A DNA stretch of 64,000 nt from Natronomonas salsuginis (lineage in GTDB: Archaea > Halobacteriota > Halobacteria > Halobacteriales > Haloarculaceae), in contig NZ_QKNX01000001.1 in NCBI RefSeq assembly GCF_005239135.1, forward strand, positions 248,001 to 312,000. The letters run 5' to 3'. Every line of letters begins with the position of its first letter. Position 1 is the stretch's first letter. Shown here one piece after another: positions 8,998 to 39,189 of this stretch. The position numbers were made by a program, and so were the translations under genes. The notes beneath the pieces are model-generated. The model ran no database searches and was not told the DNA's origin. It saw only the letters and a list, made by a program, of their open reading frames with translations.

Positions 8998-10413
8998 TCA
9001 GTCGTCGCCGAGGATGACGCGCTCGGTCATCGCGCGTGGATCGAGGACCTCGTCGGCCTCGTCTTCGGTGAGATAACCGCCCTCGATCGCGACTTCTCGA
9101 ACCGACTTCCCTTCGGCGAGCGCCTGCTTTGCGACCTTTGAGGCCTTATCGTAGCCGATCGCCGGATTGAGCGCCGTCGCGAGTGCCATCGACTGATCGA
9201 CCTGTTTCTTGCAGTGGTCGACGTTGGCCTGCAGCTTGCCGACGAAGCGCTCACCGAACGTCTCGGCGCTGTTGGCGATGAGTTCGGCGCTCTCGAGGAA
9301 GTTGTGCGCGAGCACCGGCTTGTAGAGGTTCAGGTCGATCTCGCCGCGTGCGGCGCCGGCCGCGACCGCCGCGTCGTTGCCGACGACCTGCTTGTGGACC
9401 TGATTGACTGACTCGGCGACCACCGGGTTGATCTTGCCGGGCATGATCGAGCTTCCAGGCTGGTTTTCGGGCTGCTCGACCTCACCCAGGCCGTTTCGCG
9501 GCCCCGACGCCAGCAGCCGAAGATCGTTCGCGATCTTGTTCATCGAGCCGGCGACCGTTCGGAGCGCGCCATGACCCTCGCTCATCGCGTCGTGTGCCGC
9601 CTGCGCCTCGAAGTGGTTGTCGGCTTCGCGGAACGCGAGGCCGGTCTCATCGGCGATGTTTGCGGCGGCGAGTTCGGGGAACTCCGGATGGGTGTTGAGC
9701 CCCGTGCCGACCGCCGTGCCGCCCAGCGCGAGTTCACCGAGTCGCTCGCGGGTCGCTTCGATCCGGTCGATCCCCTTCTCGATCTGTGTCCGGTAGCCGC
9801 CAAACTCCTGACCGAGACGCACCGGCGTCGCGTCCTGAAGATGCGTTCGCCCCGTCTTTACAACATCGTTGAAGGCATCCTCCTTCTCGGCCAGTTCCGA
9901 GGCGAGCACTTCGAGCCCCGGGATGGTATCTTTTTCCACGGCTTCGAGCGCGGCCACGTGCATGGCTGTGGGGATCACGTCGTTGCTCGATTGGCCGTAG
10001 TTGACGTGGTCGTTCGGGTGGATCTCGCGGGTGCCGATCTCACCACCGTAGATCTCTGTGGCGCGGTTCGCGATCACCTCGTTCGCGTTCATGTTCGAGG
10101 ACGTCCCCGAGCCGGTCTGGAACACGTCGACCGGGAACTGGTCGTCGAGGTCGCCGGCGATGACCTCGTCAGCCGCCTCAACGATCGCCTCGGCTTTGTC
10201 CTCCTCGAGGAGCCCGAGCTCGAGATTCGCCTCGGCGGCCGCCTTCTTCACGATGCCGAGCGCGCGAATGAAGCGCCGGCCGAACACGATCCCGGAAACC
10301 GGGAAGTTCTCGACGGCTCGCTGGGTCTGTGCGCCCCAGTAGGCGTCCGCGGGGACGTTCATCTCGCCGAGACTGTCGCGTTCGATCCGGTAGTCCGTGT
10401 CTTCGTCCGTCAT
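8998..10413 (-). CDS. fumC: Class II fumarate hydratase
   Basis: Interconverts fumarate and malate in the citric acid cycle; iron-independent homotetramer. The 471-aa protein has the fumarase/aspartase superfamily signature GSSIMPGKINP at about residues 322-332, the TGSGTSSNMNANEV stretch (about 101-114) and GRTHLQDATPVRLGQE (about 186), all with normal spacing. Full length. It starts at the ATG at 10411-10413 and stands alone. Confidence 0.96.
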   Translation of the reverse strand: MTDEDTDYRIERDSLGEMNVPADAYWGAQTQRAVENFPVSGIVFGRRFIRALGIVKKAAAEANLELGLLEEDKAEAIVEAADEVIAGDLDDQFPVDVFQTGSGTSSNMNANEVIANRATEIYGGEIGTREIHPNDHVNYGQSSNDVIPTAMHVAALEAVEKDTIPGLEVLASELAEKEDAFNDVVKTGRTHLQDATPVRLGQEFGGYRTQIEKGIDRIEATRERLGELALGGTAVGTGLNTHPEFPELAAANIADETGLAFREADNHFEAQAAHDAMSEGHGALRTVAGSMNKIANDLRLLASGPRNGLGEVEQPENQPGSSIMPGKINPVVAESVNQVHKQVVGNDAAVAAGAARGEIDLNLYKPVLAHNFLESAELIANSAETFGERFVGKLQANVDHCKKQVDQSMALATALNPAIGYDKASKVAKQALAEGKSVREVAIEGGYLTEDEADEVLDPRAMTERVILGDD

Positions 10414-33192: not shown

Positions 33193-33598
33193 ATCCTGCC
33201 GCATAACACCTAGGAGTCAACAGACGGCGGCGGGGTGTATTTAAACTCTTCCCCTCTATTGGAGTAGAGTTCATTATGTCCCGTCATCGCGGTCTCCTCC
33301 GTCGTGCGATTTGCTAGAGTCAAGATTACCGTGGTTTATAACAAACTTACTGCCGGTATTGGCCCATGGACGACTATAGCTGCGCGCGCTAAGAGCTTTT
33401 CACAGAGTCGTCTGCTGCCCCACCTTGTTCAGGTAGCCAACTGATGTAACAGGGAATGCGTATATTGTCGCTATTCCGCTCTGCCTCGCGACTCTGACGG
33501 TAGAACTCGAATCCAACGACGAAGTCCGAAGTAAGCCCGTTGGACACCGCCGAACCAATTTTATAAGAAAGCTTATACTATCACCTCGCTTCGGGTAA
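33193..33598. other. 406-bp non-coding stretch after tRNA-Arg
   Basis: AT-richer than the core. It holds the left copy of the 21-nt repeat (33416-33436) and, at 33571-33577, a TATA-like cttatac that probably serves the lipoprotein gene. Short frames here look random. No copy of the tRNA 3' end and no recombinase gene were seen. Confidence 0.5.
33416..33436. repeat. Left copy of a 21-nt direct repeat around the lipoprotein gene
   Basis: tgcCccaccttgttcaggtag, 20 of 21 bases identical to 35526-35546. The inner part acct-tgttc-aggt is itself an inverted repeat. Confidence 0.6.
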
Positions 33599-35497
33599 AT
33601 GATTATGAACCCACGAAGACCGGAGGTTGGCACCCATCAAATGTCACGCGGTATCATTAGTCGTCGCCATCTTCTCGCAATGACCGGCGTCGTCGTGGCT
33701 GGTGGGCTAAGCGGCTGTGCGAGCCGAGTGGCGTCGCAGGTGACGAATACAGGTGCGTCTCCAGCGGCTGTGTTTGCAGGAGACGACGAGTCGGTCGGCG
33801 AGCCGCACGTGAGTCGCTTGACTCCGACGTTATCTGGCGGGTCTGGACTGTTCTCGGGGGACGTGGAGCTGGAAGCGTGGGTCACGGCCATCGCTATGGA
33901 GAACTACAACAGTCCACGGAGTAATCGGTCGATTGCTGATATAGACGACCCTGATTTGGATGACGACGGAGTCGAAGATGGAGTTGACTCCGACGACGAC
34001 GTTCGAGGCGAGGACTACAATTCTCCCCGGAACAATCGGTCGGCCTACAAACCAGTCGACATCATCGATGACGACGTTGATGAAGACGACGAGACGTTTC
34101 GAACGGCGTTGGAGTTGGAAGCCGAGGTTCAGGATGCTGCTGACAGGGCAGTCCTAGCGATATCGAAGCGGAGTGCACGAACAGGACGGAATCCAGAGAC
34201 AGATAAGGAAATTACAGAAGCGATAGACGAGATGGACGAGCACCTCGCTGCGCTTCGAGCCGAGTTAGAGCGATGTTCTGATGAGTCCTGTGTCGAGGCT
34301 TTAGAGAACGTTGCGGAGATTGAGGACGAGGTGAGCCACGCGAGAGAACACGTTGCGGACGAACAGTGGAGTGAGGCAGTCGAAGCGGTCGGTGGAGATG
34401 GGAACGACATCCTTGTCGGTGACTACCTCGTCGCCCCGGGAGTCGACCCCAGTAACGAGGAGCGAGACGCGCTCGTCGAGTATCTGTATGGCTCGCCGAT
34501 GGTTGGGGAGCGGTTCGCCGTGTGTCTGCCTGATACGGAAGTGCCGGGTGGAAACGAAAGTCTTGCTCAGGAAGTGACTCCGCAGCGGTTCATCGAGTAC
34601 ATGACGGGGCGGGCTAGTGATGACGGGAAGGTGTACGCGTGGGGGAACAACACGAAGGCGGCTGATGGCGGTGAGGACTGTGACGATACGGACCCTGATA
34701 TCCATCCGGGGCAGGTATGTGGGGATACCGAGCATCTGTCGGCTGCGATTTCGGGGCCAGTTGAGACGGGTGGTGGGCTGGTGTCTCTGAGTAATGGTGG
34801 TGGGACAGTGACGGTAACCGTAGTGAATACCCCGCCAACGGTATCAGAAACTGATATGGGCCCGTCGACGCTCGTGTGCCCTGTTGATAGTGAAGCGTAC
34901 GAGCCGTCGGACTTGAGCGGGTGGGGCTCGGAGTCGGGCGAGAGTTCGGAGACGCCGACTATCGTCTGTCAGGTGATGGTACAGCCGCCGGAGTGCCCGG
35001 TACCGGTTCGGGCGTTGTTGTACGTGAAGCGGTGTCGGAGTAACGAGCAACTCGTCTACACGGGTGGGTGGGTTCTTGACGAAGCAGGGCTGTTCGAGGA
35101 GTCGGTGACTGCGTTGACGGTGGCTGGTGAGACGCAGGTGGTCGGTGTGGACGCTAGTGGGGTTGGTGGCGACCATGATGGTGATGGGCTCAGTGACTTT
35201 TTATCGCGAGCCGTATCGGGTGAGCGGGCTCGTCGAGGGGCGCGGATTGATTCGGCCACGGTGGAAGAGTTGGTTGAGGCTGGTGTGTTGGCGGATGGAG
35301 AAGTGTATTGTTGGGGGAAGGTGTCTTCCTCAAAGGCGGAGTCTGGTAGCTGCGGAGACACCCATGGAGCTGACGGCGACGTTGTGGTGACGCATTGTCC
35401 GTTGGATGCGCCGGTGCTTCATTTGGTTATCGCTGGGAGTGCGTCTAACGAGGTGAAATTCAAGACGGGCGCAGAACTCTCGAAGAGCGTGAACTGA
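33599..35497 (+). CDS. Large Tat-exported lipoprotein with calcium/metal-type motifs, function unknown
   Basis: 632 aa from the ATG at 33599 (25 nt after a TATA-like box); an ATG at 33641 also works. A Tat signal (ISRRHLLAM) and lipobox (GGLSGC) predict a cell-surface lipoprotein. A repeated motif ENYNSPRSNRS / EDYNSPRNNRS occurs near residues 101 and 140, between Asp-rich stretches (DPDLDDDGVEDGVDSDDD) like thrombospondin type 3 calcium repeats. A coiled middle part follows, then DCDDTDPDIHPG, the pattern of the MopE-type metal-binding motif, and DHDGDGLSDF, an EF-hand-like loop. It is unusually rich in Cys (about 15). Codon use and GC differ from neighbours, suggesting transfer. Confidence 0.75.
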   Translation: MIMNPRRPEVGTHQMSRGIISRRHLLAMTGVVVAGGLSGCASRVASQVTNTGASPAAVFAGDDESVGEPHVSRLTPTLSGGSGLFSGDVELEAWVTAIAMENYNSPRSNRSIADIDDPDLDDDGVEDGVDSDDDVRGEDYNSPRNNRSAYKPVDIIDDDVDEDDETFRTALELEAEVQDAADRAVLAISKRSARTGRNPETDKEITEAIDEMDEHLAALRAELERCSDESCVEALENVAEIEDEVSHAREHVADEQWSEAVEAVGGDGNDILVGDYLVAPGVDPSNEERDALVEYLYGSPMVGERFAVCLPDTEVPGGNESLAQEVTPQRFIEYMTGRASDDGKVYAWGNNTKAADGGEDCDDTDPDIHPGQVCGDTEHLSAAISGPVETGGGLVSLSNGGGTVTVTVVNTPPTVSETDMGPSTLVCPVDSEAYEPSDLSGWGSESGESSETPTIVCQVMVQPPECPVPVRALLYVKRCRSNEQLVYTGGWVLDEAGLFEESVTALTVAGETQVVGVDASGVGGDHDGDGLSDFLSRAVSGERARRGARIDSATVEELVEAGVLADGEVYCWGKVSSSKAESGSCGDTHGADGDVVVTHCPLDAPVLHLVIAGSASNEVKFKTGAELSKSVN

Positions 35498-35525
35498 ACG
35501 ACTTCTCCCTCAGCGGCTTTCCCGT

Positions 35526-35546
35526 TGCTCCACCTTGTTCAGGTAG
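35526..35546. repeat. Right copy of the 21-nt direct repeat
   Basis: tgcTccaccttgttcaggtag, 29 nt after the lipoprotein stop; pairs with 33416-33436 in the same orientation. Confidence 0.6.
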
Positions 35547-35644
35547 ATAGATTCCACGATACATCTTCTCGAATCAATTAATATAGTGATACTGTTCCCA
35601 ACTTCGTGGAAAGATTTTTCGACTGTGCCACCCAACACTCATCC

Positions 35645-35887
35645 ATGTCAGCAGAGACGGACAAGCAGGGTCGCCTCTACATCCCCAAAGGGGTACGAGA
35701 AAAGTACGGGGAGCGGTACCACATCGTGACCTACGAGGATAGAATCGAACTCATTCCGGTCGCAGACGACCCGCTCGCGGCTGTCCGCGCAGCGGCAGGC
35801 GAGCTCCGGGATGCGTCTGTGGAAGAGATACGAGAGGATATCGAGGACGAGGCGGAGGCGGAAGCCCGGAGTGAGGGCGGTAGATGA
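35645..35887 (+). CDS. AbrB-type antitoxin of a VapBC-like pair
   Basis: 80 aa. The N-terminus (ETDKQGRLYIPKGVREKYGE) is an AbrB/SpoVT DNA-binding fold; the C-terminal half is an acidic helix (VEEIREDIEDEAEAEARSEG) suited to wrapping the toxin. The ATG at 35645 is chosen over one at 35606. It overlaps the toxin start by 4 nt (ATGA), the classic antitoxin-first order; such antitoxins usually repress their own operon. Confidence 0.82.
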   Translation: MSAETDKQGRLYIPKGVREKYGERYHIVTYEDRIELIPVADDPLAAVRAAAGELRDASVEEIREDIEDEAEAEARSEGGR

Positions 35888-36276
35888 CGGTGTACGTCGA
35901 AACAGGCTTTTTTCTCGCGCTCGCGAAGGACACCGATAGGCTACAGGAGTCGGCAGAAGCTGCGCTTGACGAACACGAAGTCGAAACATCGGCGTTCTCG
36001 TATCTCGAACTCGTCCTCGCTCGGGAACGTTACGAGTTCGATTACGTTCCGCTCGTGGCCAATCTGCTCGAATTAGTTCCCGTCCGTGACGAGGAGGAGA
36101 AGCAGGTAGTTCTCAAAGCTGTGAACTACTACGAAGAGGGAATGACTCCGTTCGACGCGTTCCACGCAGCGACCGCAGAAACAAGACGGTTAGATGTGCT
36201 CTCCTCGGAGAAGGATTACGAGAATATCGAGGTTTCGAGGGTTCCGTTGGAACCTAGTGATACCGGCGAGGAGTGA
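35884..36276 (+). CDS. PIN-domain toxin (VapC-like)
   Basis: 130-aa predicted RNase. The acidic PIN residues appear at E6 (MTVYVETGFF, where Asp is usual), E in SAFSYLELVLARE, D in MTPFDAFHAA and D/E in LSSEKDYENIE. The Asp-to-Glu change at the first site may be tolerated or may weaken metal binding. Translationally coupled to the AbrB-type antitoxin. Confidence 0.8.
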   Translation: MTVYVETGFFLALAKDTDRLQESAEAALDEHEVETSAFSYLELVLARERYEFDYVPLVANLLELVPVRDEEEKQVVLKAVNYYEEGMTPFDAFHAATAETRRLDVLSSEKDYENIEVSRVPLEPSDTGEE

Positions 36277-36549
36277 TTTGTCCGCTCGGATTCTGTGGCG
36301 AGAACGAGATAATTCTTCTGGCGTAGTCAGGTAGCTTATCTCGAACCCAAGATTCTCTTCGTAGAACGCCTGTAGAACTAGAAACCACTCAAACCGGTCC
36401 ATCTCAAAATCATCAAGCATGGTGCTGTCAACGGGCGTGAGTGTGCTTAACCCCTATCAAATGGACTCGGCCTCCGCTTGCATCGATATTCGTGATGGAC
36501 GTGAATAAAGGCCGAAAGCGCTTTCAGTATGAATATGATATGAGTATGT

Positions 36550-36816
36550 ATGAGCCGCAGCGAGGAGCGCAAGGTCGGGGAACGCGGGCAAGTCACCCTC
36601 CCGAAGGAGCTCCGGGAGAAGTTCGACATTCACGGGGGCGACGAGGTAATCATCCACGAGGAGGACGGGAAAATCACTATCGAGAAGCCAGTAAGCCGAG
36701 ACGTACTCGCCGAAGGCTATCGCCAGTACGCAGCAGAGTCGGAAGCCCTTGAAGAAGAGATGGCCGGCGTGTCCCTAGAGAGTAATCAATATCTCGGCGA
36801 TGCGCCGGATTGGTAG
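36550..36816 (+). CDS. AbrB/MazE-type antitoxin
   Basis: 88 aa. AbrB fold at residues 5-45 (VGERGQVTLPKELREKFDIH, then GGDEVIIHEEDGKITIEKP), with an acidic helical tail. A TATA-like tatgaatatgat lies at about 36528-36539. Three bases separate its stop from the MazF-like gene. It would neutralise that toxin and repress the pair. Confidence 0.85.
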   Translation: MSRSEERKVGERGQVTLPKELREKFDIHGGDEVIIHEEDGKITIEKPVSRDVLAEGYRQYAAESEALEEEMAGVSLESNQYLGDAPDW

Positions 36817-36819
36817 CTG

Positions 36820-37173
36820 ATGAACGTCCGACGAGGGGACATCGTTATCGTCGACCTCAACCCGACGGAAGGTTCGGAGCAGCGTGGAACACGCCCATGT
36901 CTCGTCGTGCAAAACGACGTTGGGAACGAGAACGCCCCGACGACGATTGTCGTCCCATTCACGACATCCCGTGGAGACCAGCTGTATCCTTTCGAAGTTC
37001 TAGTCTCGGCCGATGAGTGCTCCTTGAGAGAAGACTCAGTTGCCCTCTGTAGTCAGATTCGTACTGTCTCTATCGAACACCGCATTACGGACAATGTTGG
37101 TTCCATTCCTGACTCCCGTATGGAAGAAGTCGATGATGCCCTCGAATACAGTCTCGGTCTGAAAGGCCTCTAG
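36820..37173 (+). CDS. MazF/PemK-type endoribonuclease toxin
   Basis: 117 aa of the PemK/MazF fold: RRGDIVIVDLNPTEGSEQRG (residues 4-23), RPCLVVQND, then TIVVPFTTS and ALCSQIRTVSIEHR. These carry the usual mRNA-cleaving surface (R in RG, T in PFTT). Start ATG at 36820. Confidence 0.88.
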   Translation: MNVRRGDIVIVDLNPTEGSEQRGTRPCLVVQNDVGNENAPTTIVVPFTTSRGDQLYPFEVLVSADECSLREDSVALCSQIRTVSIEHRITDNVGSIPDSRMEEVDDALEYSLGLKGL

Positions 37174-37258
37174 TGGAACCGTCCTTGCTCCTCACATTAC
37201 AGATTTTACATCGATGATATGCTCGATATCTTCGGTTCTGTTGGTGACCAGTGCGCAA

Positions 37259-38251
37259 TTACGAGAGAGACCGACGTCGCCACAAGTACAGGCCAGCTGG
37301 GATGATCGCAAGCAGCCAGACGAGTGACGTACCGACGTACGCCCACCAGTACTGCGGCCAGTCTCGACGTTCTCGAACGTATCTCGCATCGAGGAACAGC
37401 GCAACCGGGAGCCCAAGCCAAACAGCAAAGAAAACGATTCCCCAGAGTGCTTCAGGGAGAAATTCAATACCAAAGAACGCGACGAGCCAGCCCGGGATAG
37501 CGATCATAATCGCTTTCTCCCACACGGTAGACGACACCGCAACAGAGTCTCTGTCTGGTGTTACTGCGCGGTCGTCGGCTCCGGGTTCAGTTGCTACTCG
37601 CTGTTCACCGTCTGTTCCGTCGGTACCCTGCTGCGGTTGGTCACAGGGCTGATCGGACTCAGCGATCGTCACGAACTCAAGATAATCATCAACGAGATCA
37701 AGTGCGTCTTGTTCAACCACCAAAGACGCGAGATCATCCCCGTCAATCTGTTTTACATTGAGTTGGTCAGCGAGTTCACGAGCCTGGTTCGTGAATTCAT
37801 TCGTTGTCACCACGACGACCTTATCGACGTTGTTGTACTGCTGACTGAGGCTCGCATACTGCTGGATATCAGGGGACCCAACGGTCGTGTTTGGCCCGTA
37901 CCGCTTCGCCTGAATGAGCGTCGTCTGCTCGTATGGCTGTTGTTTGCGAGCAGTGACGTCCACACCTTTGTCTATCGACGCAGTGGAGACATCGGTTTGC
38001 CAGCCCATTCGAGTCCAGAGGTCCGCGATGAAGTGCTCGAAGTCGTACGGATCCATCTGCTGGAGGACCGTTTTCAACTCCCCTGTGTTTTCAATCGGGC
38101 CCTCATCAAGCGGTAATTCCTCAATCTGCCCCGCAGGCGAGTTCGTGGTCCCCGCTGAATCACGCTGAGTCGAATTAGCGTCGTCTTTTCCAACGTTCCG
38201 AAGCCACTTGTACAGCTCCCGGTAGAAGACATATCGGAGGAACCGTTTCAT
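37259..38251 (-). CDS. Mrr-type restriction endonuclease domain fused to membrane helices
   Basis: 330 aa. After a 60-residue basic N-terminus comes an Mrr_cat nuclease domain: E72 in DPYDFEHFIADLW, D98 in DKGVDVTARK and Q114-A-K116 in LIQAKRYG, the PD-(D/E)xK set of Mrr enzymes, which cut modified DNA. A linker of about 50 acidic residues leads to three or four hydrophobic helices (VWEKAIMIAIPGWLVAFFGI and on to LVWLLAIIPAGLYLW). Membrane attachment would place the nuclease at the inner face of the membrane. The ATG at 38249-38251 is better than a TTG five codons earlier. Possibly a defence gene. Confidence 0.82.
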   Translation of the reverse strand: MKRFLRYVFYRELYKWLRNVGKDDANSTQRDSAGTTNSPAGQIEELPLDEGPIENTGELKTVLQQMDPYDFEHFIADLWTRMGWQTDVSTASIDKGVDVTARKQQPYEQTTLIQAKRYGPNTTVGSPDIQQYASLSQQYNNVDKVVVVTTNEFTNQARELADQLNVKQIDGDDLASLVVEQDALDLVDDYLEFVTIAESDQPCDQPQQGTDGTDGEQRVATEPGADDRAVTPDRDSVAVSSTVWEKAIMIAIPGWLVAFFGIEFLPEALWGIVFFAVWLGLPVALFLDARYVRERRDWPQYWWAYVGTSLVWLLAIIPAGLYLWRRRSLS

Positions 38252-38399
38252 CAGAATCCACCCCAAGCGCGATACGGTAACGAGTCAGTTGGGTGCATGT
38301 GCAATGCGTACTGGCTGACTTTTGACGGCCCGACCTAATAATACGTGTGTCGAGACAAGGGAAAAGATTCTGGAGACATAGATAGTTATCAACCAGAGA

Positions 38400-38422
38400 C
38401 ACACCCCGTTATCGATTTGTTC
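38400..38422. repeat. Left arm of a 23-bp perfect inverted repeat
   Basis: cacaccccgttatcgatttgttc; exact complement of 38517-38539, separated by 94 bp of AT-richer DNA. Each arm ends outward in a GGGGTGTG run on one strand, as in haloarchaeal origin recognition boxes, but no orc1/cdc6 gene is near. Confidence 0.7.
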
Positions 38423-38516
38423 CACATTGAGACGGTGGGGTTGAGGGTTGTGTCACAAGGGCAAATTCAGGTATTTATAACTTATAAAATGTAAAACCGC
38501 ACTACAGTGGTTAATC

Positions 38517-38539
38517 GAACAAATCGATAACGGGGTGTG
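38517..38539. repeat. Right arm of the 23-bp perfect inverted repeat
   Basis: gaacaaatcgataacggggtgtg; exact complement of 38400-38422. Confidence 0.7.
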
Positions 38540-38823
38540 GGAGTAGGACTTCCGTCGAAAACTCACATTTCGAAATACCCAACACCAGTCGCTGTAAAGT
38601 ATCTAAGTCGGACGTATTTACCGAATCATCGAGACAAATACCACAGAAGAAGACCCATTTATGTCAAAATTTCCAACAGTCGAGCGAGCTACAATGAGTA
38701 CGCCCTCGCAGAAAGATAGGGGGTCCATCGAGACTGCGAAGTGGTCGGAATCCCGTCGTTCAGATAGCGGGTGAAACAGAAACGGATCAAAACGTTGTAG
38801 CTTCCCCACGCGCATCGTGGTGT

Positions 38824-39126
38824 ATGTACCTGCTGCACTCGGGGCACCAGTTCTACGAATCCGTACTCATCCTCACATTCGCGGTCGTCGTGCTTGCGAG
38901 CGCGTTCGCACTCACGAGAGACGGGTGGTCGCGCGTCGGCGCACTCCTCGGCGCGGCGATGATCGCCGGTGGCACACGAGTCGGCGTGGAGGCGCTCGGA
39001 ACCCACGCACACGGGCTGTTCCACCTCCTCGGACACGGTCTCGAGTTGAGCCTCATCGTAACGTCAGTTCTCGCGGTGTACTACGCGCTCGACGCTCGAT
39101 CCGCCACCGACCTCGTGTCCGAATAG
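38824..39126 (+). CDS. Small membrane protein, function unknown
   Basis: 100 aa with three predicted membrane helices (VLILTFAVVVLASAFAL, VGALLGAAMIAGGTRVGV and LELSLIVTSVLAVYYAL) and several His (HSGHQFYE, THAHGLFHLLGHG), which might bind a metal or quinone. It lies 63 nt before a HalX regulator on the same strand, so a signalling link is possible. Confidence 0.7.
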   Translation: MYLLHSGHQFYESVLILTFAVVVLASAFALTRDGWSRVGALLGAAMIAGGTRVGVEALGTHAHGLFHLLGHGLELSLIVTSVLAVYYALDARSATDLVSE

Positions 39127-39189
39127 ATCGACGGACAGCGACACGCCGGAATACATATCACACAGACGCACAAAAAGGGGTCGTAGAGA

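Follow-up and report, generated by a model that had tools for sequence, protein, structure and literature searches.

The window analyzed here, a 64-kb stretch of contig C1 (882 kb) of Natronomonas salsuginis, contains a lower-GC islet that extends from about 33194 to 39142, between the end of a tRNA-Arg gene and a block of sequence conserved in the genus. In five congeners the conserved sequence on the left extends no farther than the end of the tRNA-Arg gene (33193-33195), and the right conserved block starts at about 39141-39146 in seven of eight congener stretches and at 39189 in the remaining one. The two flanks lie far apart in the single-contig congener G006, indicating that rearrangement has occurred too and that no empty site is demonstrable. 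On its plus strand, the islet encodes a predicted secreted protein of 632 aa (33599-35497), with repeated YNSPR-NRS motifs, a DxDxDG-type stretch, and only a weak RCC1 match, followed by two tandem toxin-antitoxin pairs, vapBC-like and mazEF (35606-37173). Haloarchaeal plasmids carry MazF copies with 81-83% identity to this one, a likeness that is weak evidence because the collection searched holds plasmids only. The minus strand carries a gene for an Mrr-type restriction endonuclease (37259-38266; Mrr_cat, E 2.9e-28). No relaxase, parA, integrase, or other plasmid gene was recognized in the islet. Nor is the tRNA-Arg end duplicated as an att site; the islet holds only an unrelated 17-bp direct repeat, CCACCTTGTTCAGGTAG, at 33420 and 35530, which flanks the 632-aa gene.

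Upstream of mrr, the islet holds the inverted repeat that is the subject of this report. Its arms, at 38400-38422 and 38517-38539, are complementary at 23 of 23 positions and enclose 94 nt, exactly as a preliminary description of the sequence had stated; the second-longest inverted repeat in the window, with spacers of up to 400 nt allowed, measures 12 nt. With up to three mismatches allowed, a 19-mer of the arm occurs twice in the window, against 0.02 copies expected in shuffles, and the 2.9-Mb genome searched likewise contains no copies beyond the two arms. The single-strand hairpin at the repeat has a z score of −6.3, which reflects the perfect arms. The left arm reads GAACAAATCGATAACGGGGTGTG on the minus strand and the right arm reads GAACAAATCGATAACGGGGTGTG on the plus strand, so that each has an outward G-run. 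The enclosed region (38423-38516) has a GC content of 40%, compared with 63% for the window, and a 40-bp stretch within it falls to 23%. The two palindromes noted earlier between the arms were located at 38474-38488 (TTTATAA-C-TTATAAA, where the spacer is richest in AT) and at 38448-38458 (TTGTG-T-CACAA). A single G-rich stretch, GGTGGGG, lies on the plus strand at the inner side of the left arm (38434-38440). Rfam contains no known RNA element matching the site, and a bacterial promoter scan, which is blind to archaeal promoters, found nothing above shuffles there. The exact 19-mer is absent from IMG/VR, and a phage collection yielded only a remote Orc relative; we rejected a viral origin of the site on these grounds.

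The identity of the arms emerged from a distant BLASTN search of a plasmid collection, in which 571 bp around the site served as the query. Four weak matches were obtained. Three were haloarchaeal and covered the arm, and all three adjoin annotated orc1/cdc6 genes, at distances of about 10 bp, 0.5 kb, and 0.7 kb. At each of these plasmid loci, arrays of GAACAAATCGATAGRGGTGTG or GAACACATCGATAGAGGGGTGTG surround the orc gene in both orientations, and arrays of this TCGATA-type box were present at every orc gene of the clade that was examined, including further loci from the same taxonomic family and order. A 22-mer identical to that of the arm, AACAAATCGATAACGGGGTGTG, lies inside the orc-linked origin arrays of two other haloarchaeal loci (L075 and L076). 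A weight matrix trained exclusively on orc-linked boxes, 45 distinct ones beside six clade orc genes, gave the left and right arms 34.8 and 33.1 bits, respectively, whereas the next-best site in the window scored 7.4 bits and the maximum over 97 kb of the organism's own contigs C3 and C5, mostly around orc genes, was 14.3 bits. On the left, the likeness to orc-linked origin recognition boxes (ORBs) reaches past the arm through TCTCTGG to about 38393, and this tail matches a Haloprofundus ORB; the tail of the right arm, GGGAGT, is similar to Halocatena plasmid ORBs.

The arrangement of the arms is likewise that of orc-linked loci, in which the inner ORBs diverge with their G-runs outward around a spacer of mostly 105-335 bp that is usually AT-richer. 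By the measure used for those loci, the spacer of the window pair is 96 bp; at 94 bp between the arms, it sits toward the lower limit of the range, and the ORB count of two is below that of most clade origins. Pairs identical at 23 of 23 positions are present in three orc-linked origins, and perfect arms are thus normal for the TCGATA-type ORB family. A 20-mer search over the genome_contigs collection found no match. A looser pattern recovered from the same collection four matches in bacterial metagenome-assembled genomes, at about chance level, and a single plasmid from haloarchaea on which ORBs adjoin a clade orc1/cdc6 (891.7 bits). None of 391 other genomes has the same pair at 80- to 110-bp spacing. 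Because the loci were gathered by similarity to the arm, the orc-linked share among them is no unbiased estimate; the argument for ORB identity draws instead on direct orc adjacency and multicopy arrays. Single weak matches with no nearby orc gene (L042-L048, L051-L053, and L059) were taken as chance. At L043 (9708-9860 and 14075; G142:C1), several similar boxes ending in GGGGTCCCC stand in direct orientation with no orc gene nearby, and these look like a different repeat. Two Orc genes of a different Orc family, L215 (950) and L221 (3566), have one TCGATA-type ORB upstream each, so the box extends beyond a single Orc clade. We conclude that, judged by sequence, orientation, and spacing, the arms are ORBs, as their appearance had suggested from the start, and that they are of the type of one plasmid-borne Orc1/Cdc6 clade (TCGATA type). 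A clade Orc1/Cdc6 would be expected to bind them.

Haloarchaeal orc/cdc6-associated origins combine inverted ORB repeats carrying the halophile G-string, an AT-rich unwinding element between the ORBs, and a directly adjacent orc/cdc6 gene (Wu et al. 2012, PMC3528665). The site has the inverted ORBs with their G-strings, and by composition the spacer is a putative DNA unwinding element, a function assigned from orc-linked origins. The adjacent gene is missing: no orc1/cdc6 is near, as noted earlier, the window contains none, and the 882-kb contig C1 has only weak AAA-ATPase matches. The proposal in the preliminary description that the repeat may be a replication origin is therefore supported at the sequence level, by the ORBs, their orientation, their spacing, and the AT-rich core, while the missing initiator argues against autonomous replication activity. 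GC skew over 786 kb of C1 gave no support for an active origin. No notable sign change occurs at the site; the cumulative skew has a local minimum about 18 kb away, and the skew change across the 290-kb bin edge ranks 33rd among 58 and falls far short of the maximum in shuffles.

The genome encodes five Orc proteins, on contigs C3 and C5, and none belongs to the clade. The best of them matches the clade protein with 263 bits and 37% identity, whereas within the same taxonomic family the clade's core members exceed 580 bits. In a maximum-likelihood tree, the Orcs associated with TCGATA-type ORBs form one group (100/99) with all five resident Orcs outside it; the tree has long branches, and its deep joins are uncertain. 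The clade initiator was not found in the assembly (12 contigs, 99.94% complete); a clade Orc could possibly sit on a plasmid missing from it. Comparison of the arms with boxes at the resident orc1/cdc6 genes, an idea raised at the outset, revealed ORB-like inverted repeats at two of the five, but of another sequence. The Orc at 237 kb of C3 shares 76-84% identity with Orcs from other genera, and these are accompanied by an inverted repeat, TCCAGTGGAAACGAAGGGGTGGGG, of classical oriC1 look; the Orc at 183 kb of C5 has the ORB-like inverted repeat TTACGACGGAAACGTGGGG. No convincing ORBs were found at the remaining three. Clade genes, for their part, occur on plasmids in 186 PLSDB records, Natronomonas pharaonis among them, where the clade member resides on the 131-kb plasmid NC_007427. 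In the genus, genome G007 has such an Orc on a contig of 130,989 bp that agrees with this plasmid in length and gene position, with ORBs of the GAACACATCGATAGAGGGGTGTG type.

TCGATA-type ORBs also occur apart from initiator genes elsewhere. One divergent ORB pair recurs in two species that belong to a single genus (L050, about 9625-9890 of G064:C1, and L079, about 9052-9298 of G058:C1), with no orc gene within roughly 9.5 kb on either side. Between the two species the ORBs differ hardly at all but the spacer differs clearly, a pattern that suggests that selection acts on the orphan pair. At a threshold of E 1e-90 neither genome has a clade Orc; both encode an Orc of another kind, beside which one similar ORB lies (L215 and L221), making binding in trans possible at the orphan pair. 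A third locus (L049, 9323-9840 of G034:C1) is an orphan cluster of four ORBs of the GAACAAATCGATAAGGGGGTG type beside two Mrr-domain genes, with no orc gene in the surrounding 58 kb. Three orphan loci do not suffice for a functional claim, but they make worth testing the unlikely idea that initiator-less ORB pairs are recurring, selected docking sites on haloarchaeal chromosomes for plasmid Orc1/Cdc6 proteins, serving as trans-activated spare origins or as antiplasmid decoys.

Taken together, these data make it probable that the site is the core of a plasmid-type Orc1/Cdc6 origin left in the chromosome by an integrated plasmid without its initiator. That the matching initiator gene was not found in the genome is what makes an integrated-plasmid relic the most likely reading, and the earlier suggestion that the repeat may have been the origin of a once-autonomous element agrees with its place in the islet and with the occurrence of the cognate clade on plasmids. 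In the complete replicon, an Orc1/Cdc6 of the TCGATA clade, of the types found on the Haloprofundus megaplasmid and the 131-kb N. pharaonis plasmid, would bind both ORBs, after which the AT-rich core would presumably melt and MCM would be loaded. The plasmid, or a fragment of it, would then have integrated and lost its initiator, with the origin core staying in the islet beside the tRNA gene. Minimal oriC1 likewise consists of two inverted ORBs around an AT-rich region, and haloarchaeal origins each depend on their own Cdc6, which can act in trans (PMC3936714); dormant origins exist in haloarchaea (PMC4595724). With its cognate Orc absent, the site is expected to be silent on its own, although an initiator supplied in trans might still bind it and perhaps fire it. 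The ORBs are undecayed, which is unexpected for an old relic, and so the relic would have to be recent or under selection.

The intact ORBs could also be read as belonging to a chromosomal origin, active or dormant, that is driven in trans, whether by one of the ORB-less resident Orcs or by an Orc of the clade encoded on a plasmid that escaped assembly. We consider this rather unlikely. Cdc6 proteins are able to act in trans (PMC3936714), dormant haloarchaeal origins are known (PMC4595724), and three resident Orcs are without convincing ORBs; against this, an origin responds specifically to its own Cdc6 (PMC3936714), none of the five resident Orcs belongs to the clade, and the skew at the site does not depart from background. 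Moreover, four other genomes that were examined encode close relatives of the three ORB-less Orcs, whereas the TCGATA-type ORB is found in some genomes only. The setting of the pair in an islet with mrr and toxin-antitoxin genes brings to mind a decoy or incompatibility site as part of a possible defense islet, which would titrate the initiator of incoming clade plasmids and lower their establishment. A chromosomal ORB-rich region of Haloarcula hispanica lowers plasmid copy number, probably via titration of Cdc6E (PMC3936714), the clade circulates in the genus, one orphan pair is conserved in two species, and the orphan cluster L049 likewise lies beside Mrr-domain genes. Yet the known titrating region has 11 ORBs and the site has 2, two Mrr neighborhoods are too few to exclude coincidence, and no relative carries the site, which precludes a test of selection at it; we regard a decoy function as quite unlikely.

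The preliminary description had also offered an invertible promoter, a bidirectional operator, or a small MITE, to which the symmetric TATA-like core between divergent neighbors lends some appeal. Nothing beyond that core supports an operator or a switch: the arms match orc-linked ORBs, and no recombinase was recognized among the genes next to the repeat. The mrr start is about 200 nt away from the TATA-like box and the gene at 38824 more than 300 nt away, distances unlike the usually short leaders of haloarchaea. A MITE requires several dispersed copies and was rejected on copy number, the repeat being present at one locus only in the genome. As a group, these readings are highly improbable.

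Published predictions of haloarchaeal origins examined only the surroundings of orc/cdc6 genes (PMC3528665), and a clean ORB pair with no initiator indicates that origin cores are findable apart from their initiators. The site would also offer a simple system in which to study trans-activation, plasmid incompatibility, and origin turnover. A relic of an integrated plasmid would be a modest finding; a retained docking site, if true, would add a new layer to the interplay between plasmid and host.

Among known systems, the site resembles the orc1/cdc6-linked TCGATA-type plasmid origins of Haloprofundus halobius (NZ_CP083667), Halorubrum ezzemoulense (NZ_CP034941), Halocatena salina (NZ_CP096022), and N. 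pharaonis (NC_007427), sharing with them the ORB family, the opposed arrangement of ORBs with G-runs outward, and the AT-rich spacer. It differs from them in having two ORBs rather than about four to fourteen and in having no adjacent orc1/cdc6, with none of the clade in the genome. Compared with the minimal oriC1 (oriC1m) of H. hispanica, the site has another ORB sequence and another initiator family, and where an inner inverted G-rich pair enhances oriC1m, the site has the single GGTGGGG and no pair (PMC3936714). Like oriC2D, the ORB-rich negative control region of H. hispanica, the site could bind an initiator through its ORBs and yet not be an origin; oriC2D, however, has its 11 ORBs directly beside cdc6E, in contrast to two ORBs and no initiator gene here (PMC3936714). 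Finally, like the deficient oriC3-cdc6D* of H. hispanica (PMC3528665) and the dormant oriC4-cdc6H of Haloferax mediterranei (PMC4595724), it is an origin-like sequence that would not normally be expected to fire. Those two retain a cdc6 gene, whereas this site has intact ORBs and lacks the gene. The ORB-pair origin core is of a known kind; what is unusual is that it stands apart from its initiator.
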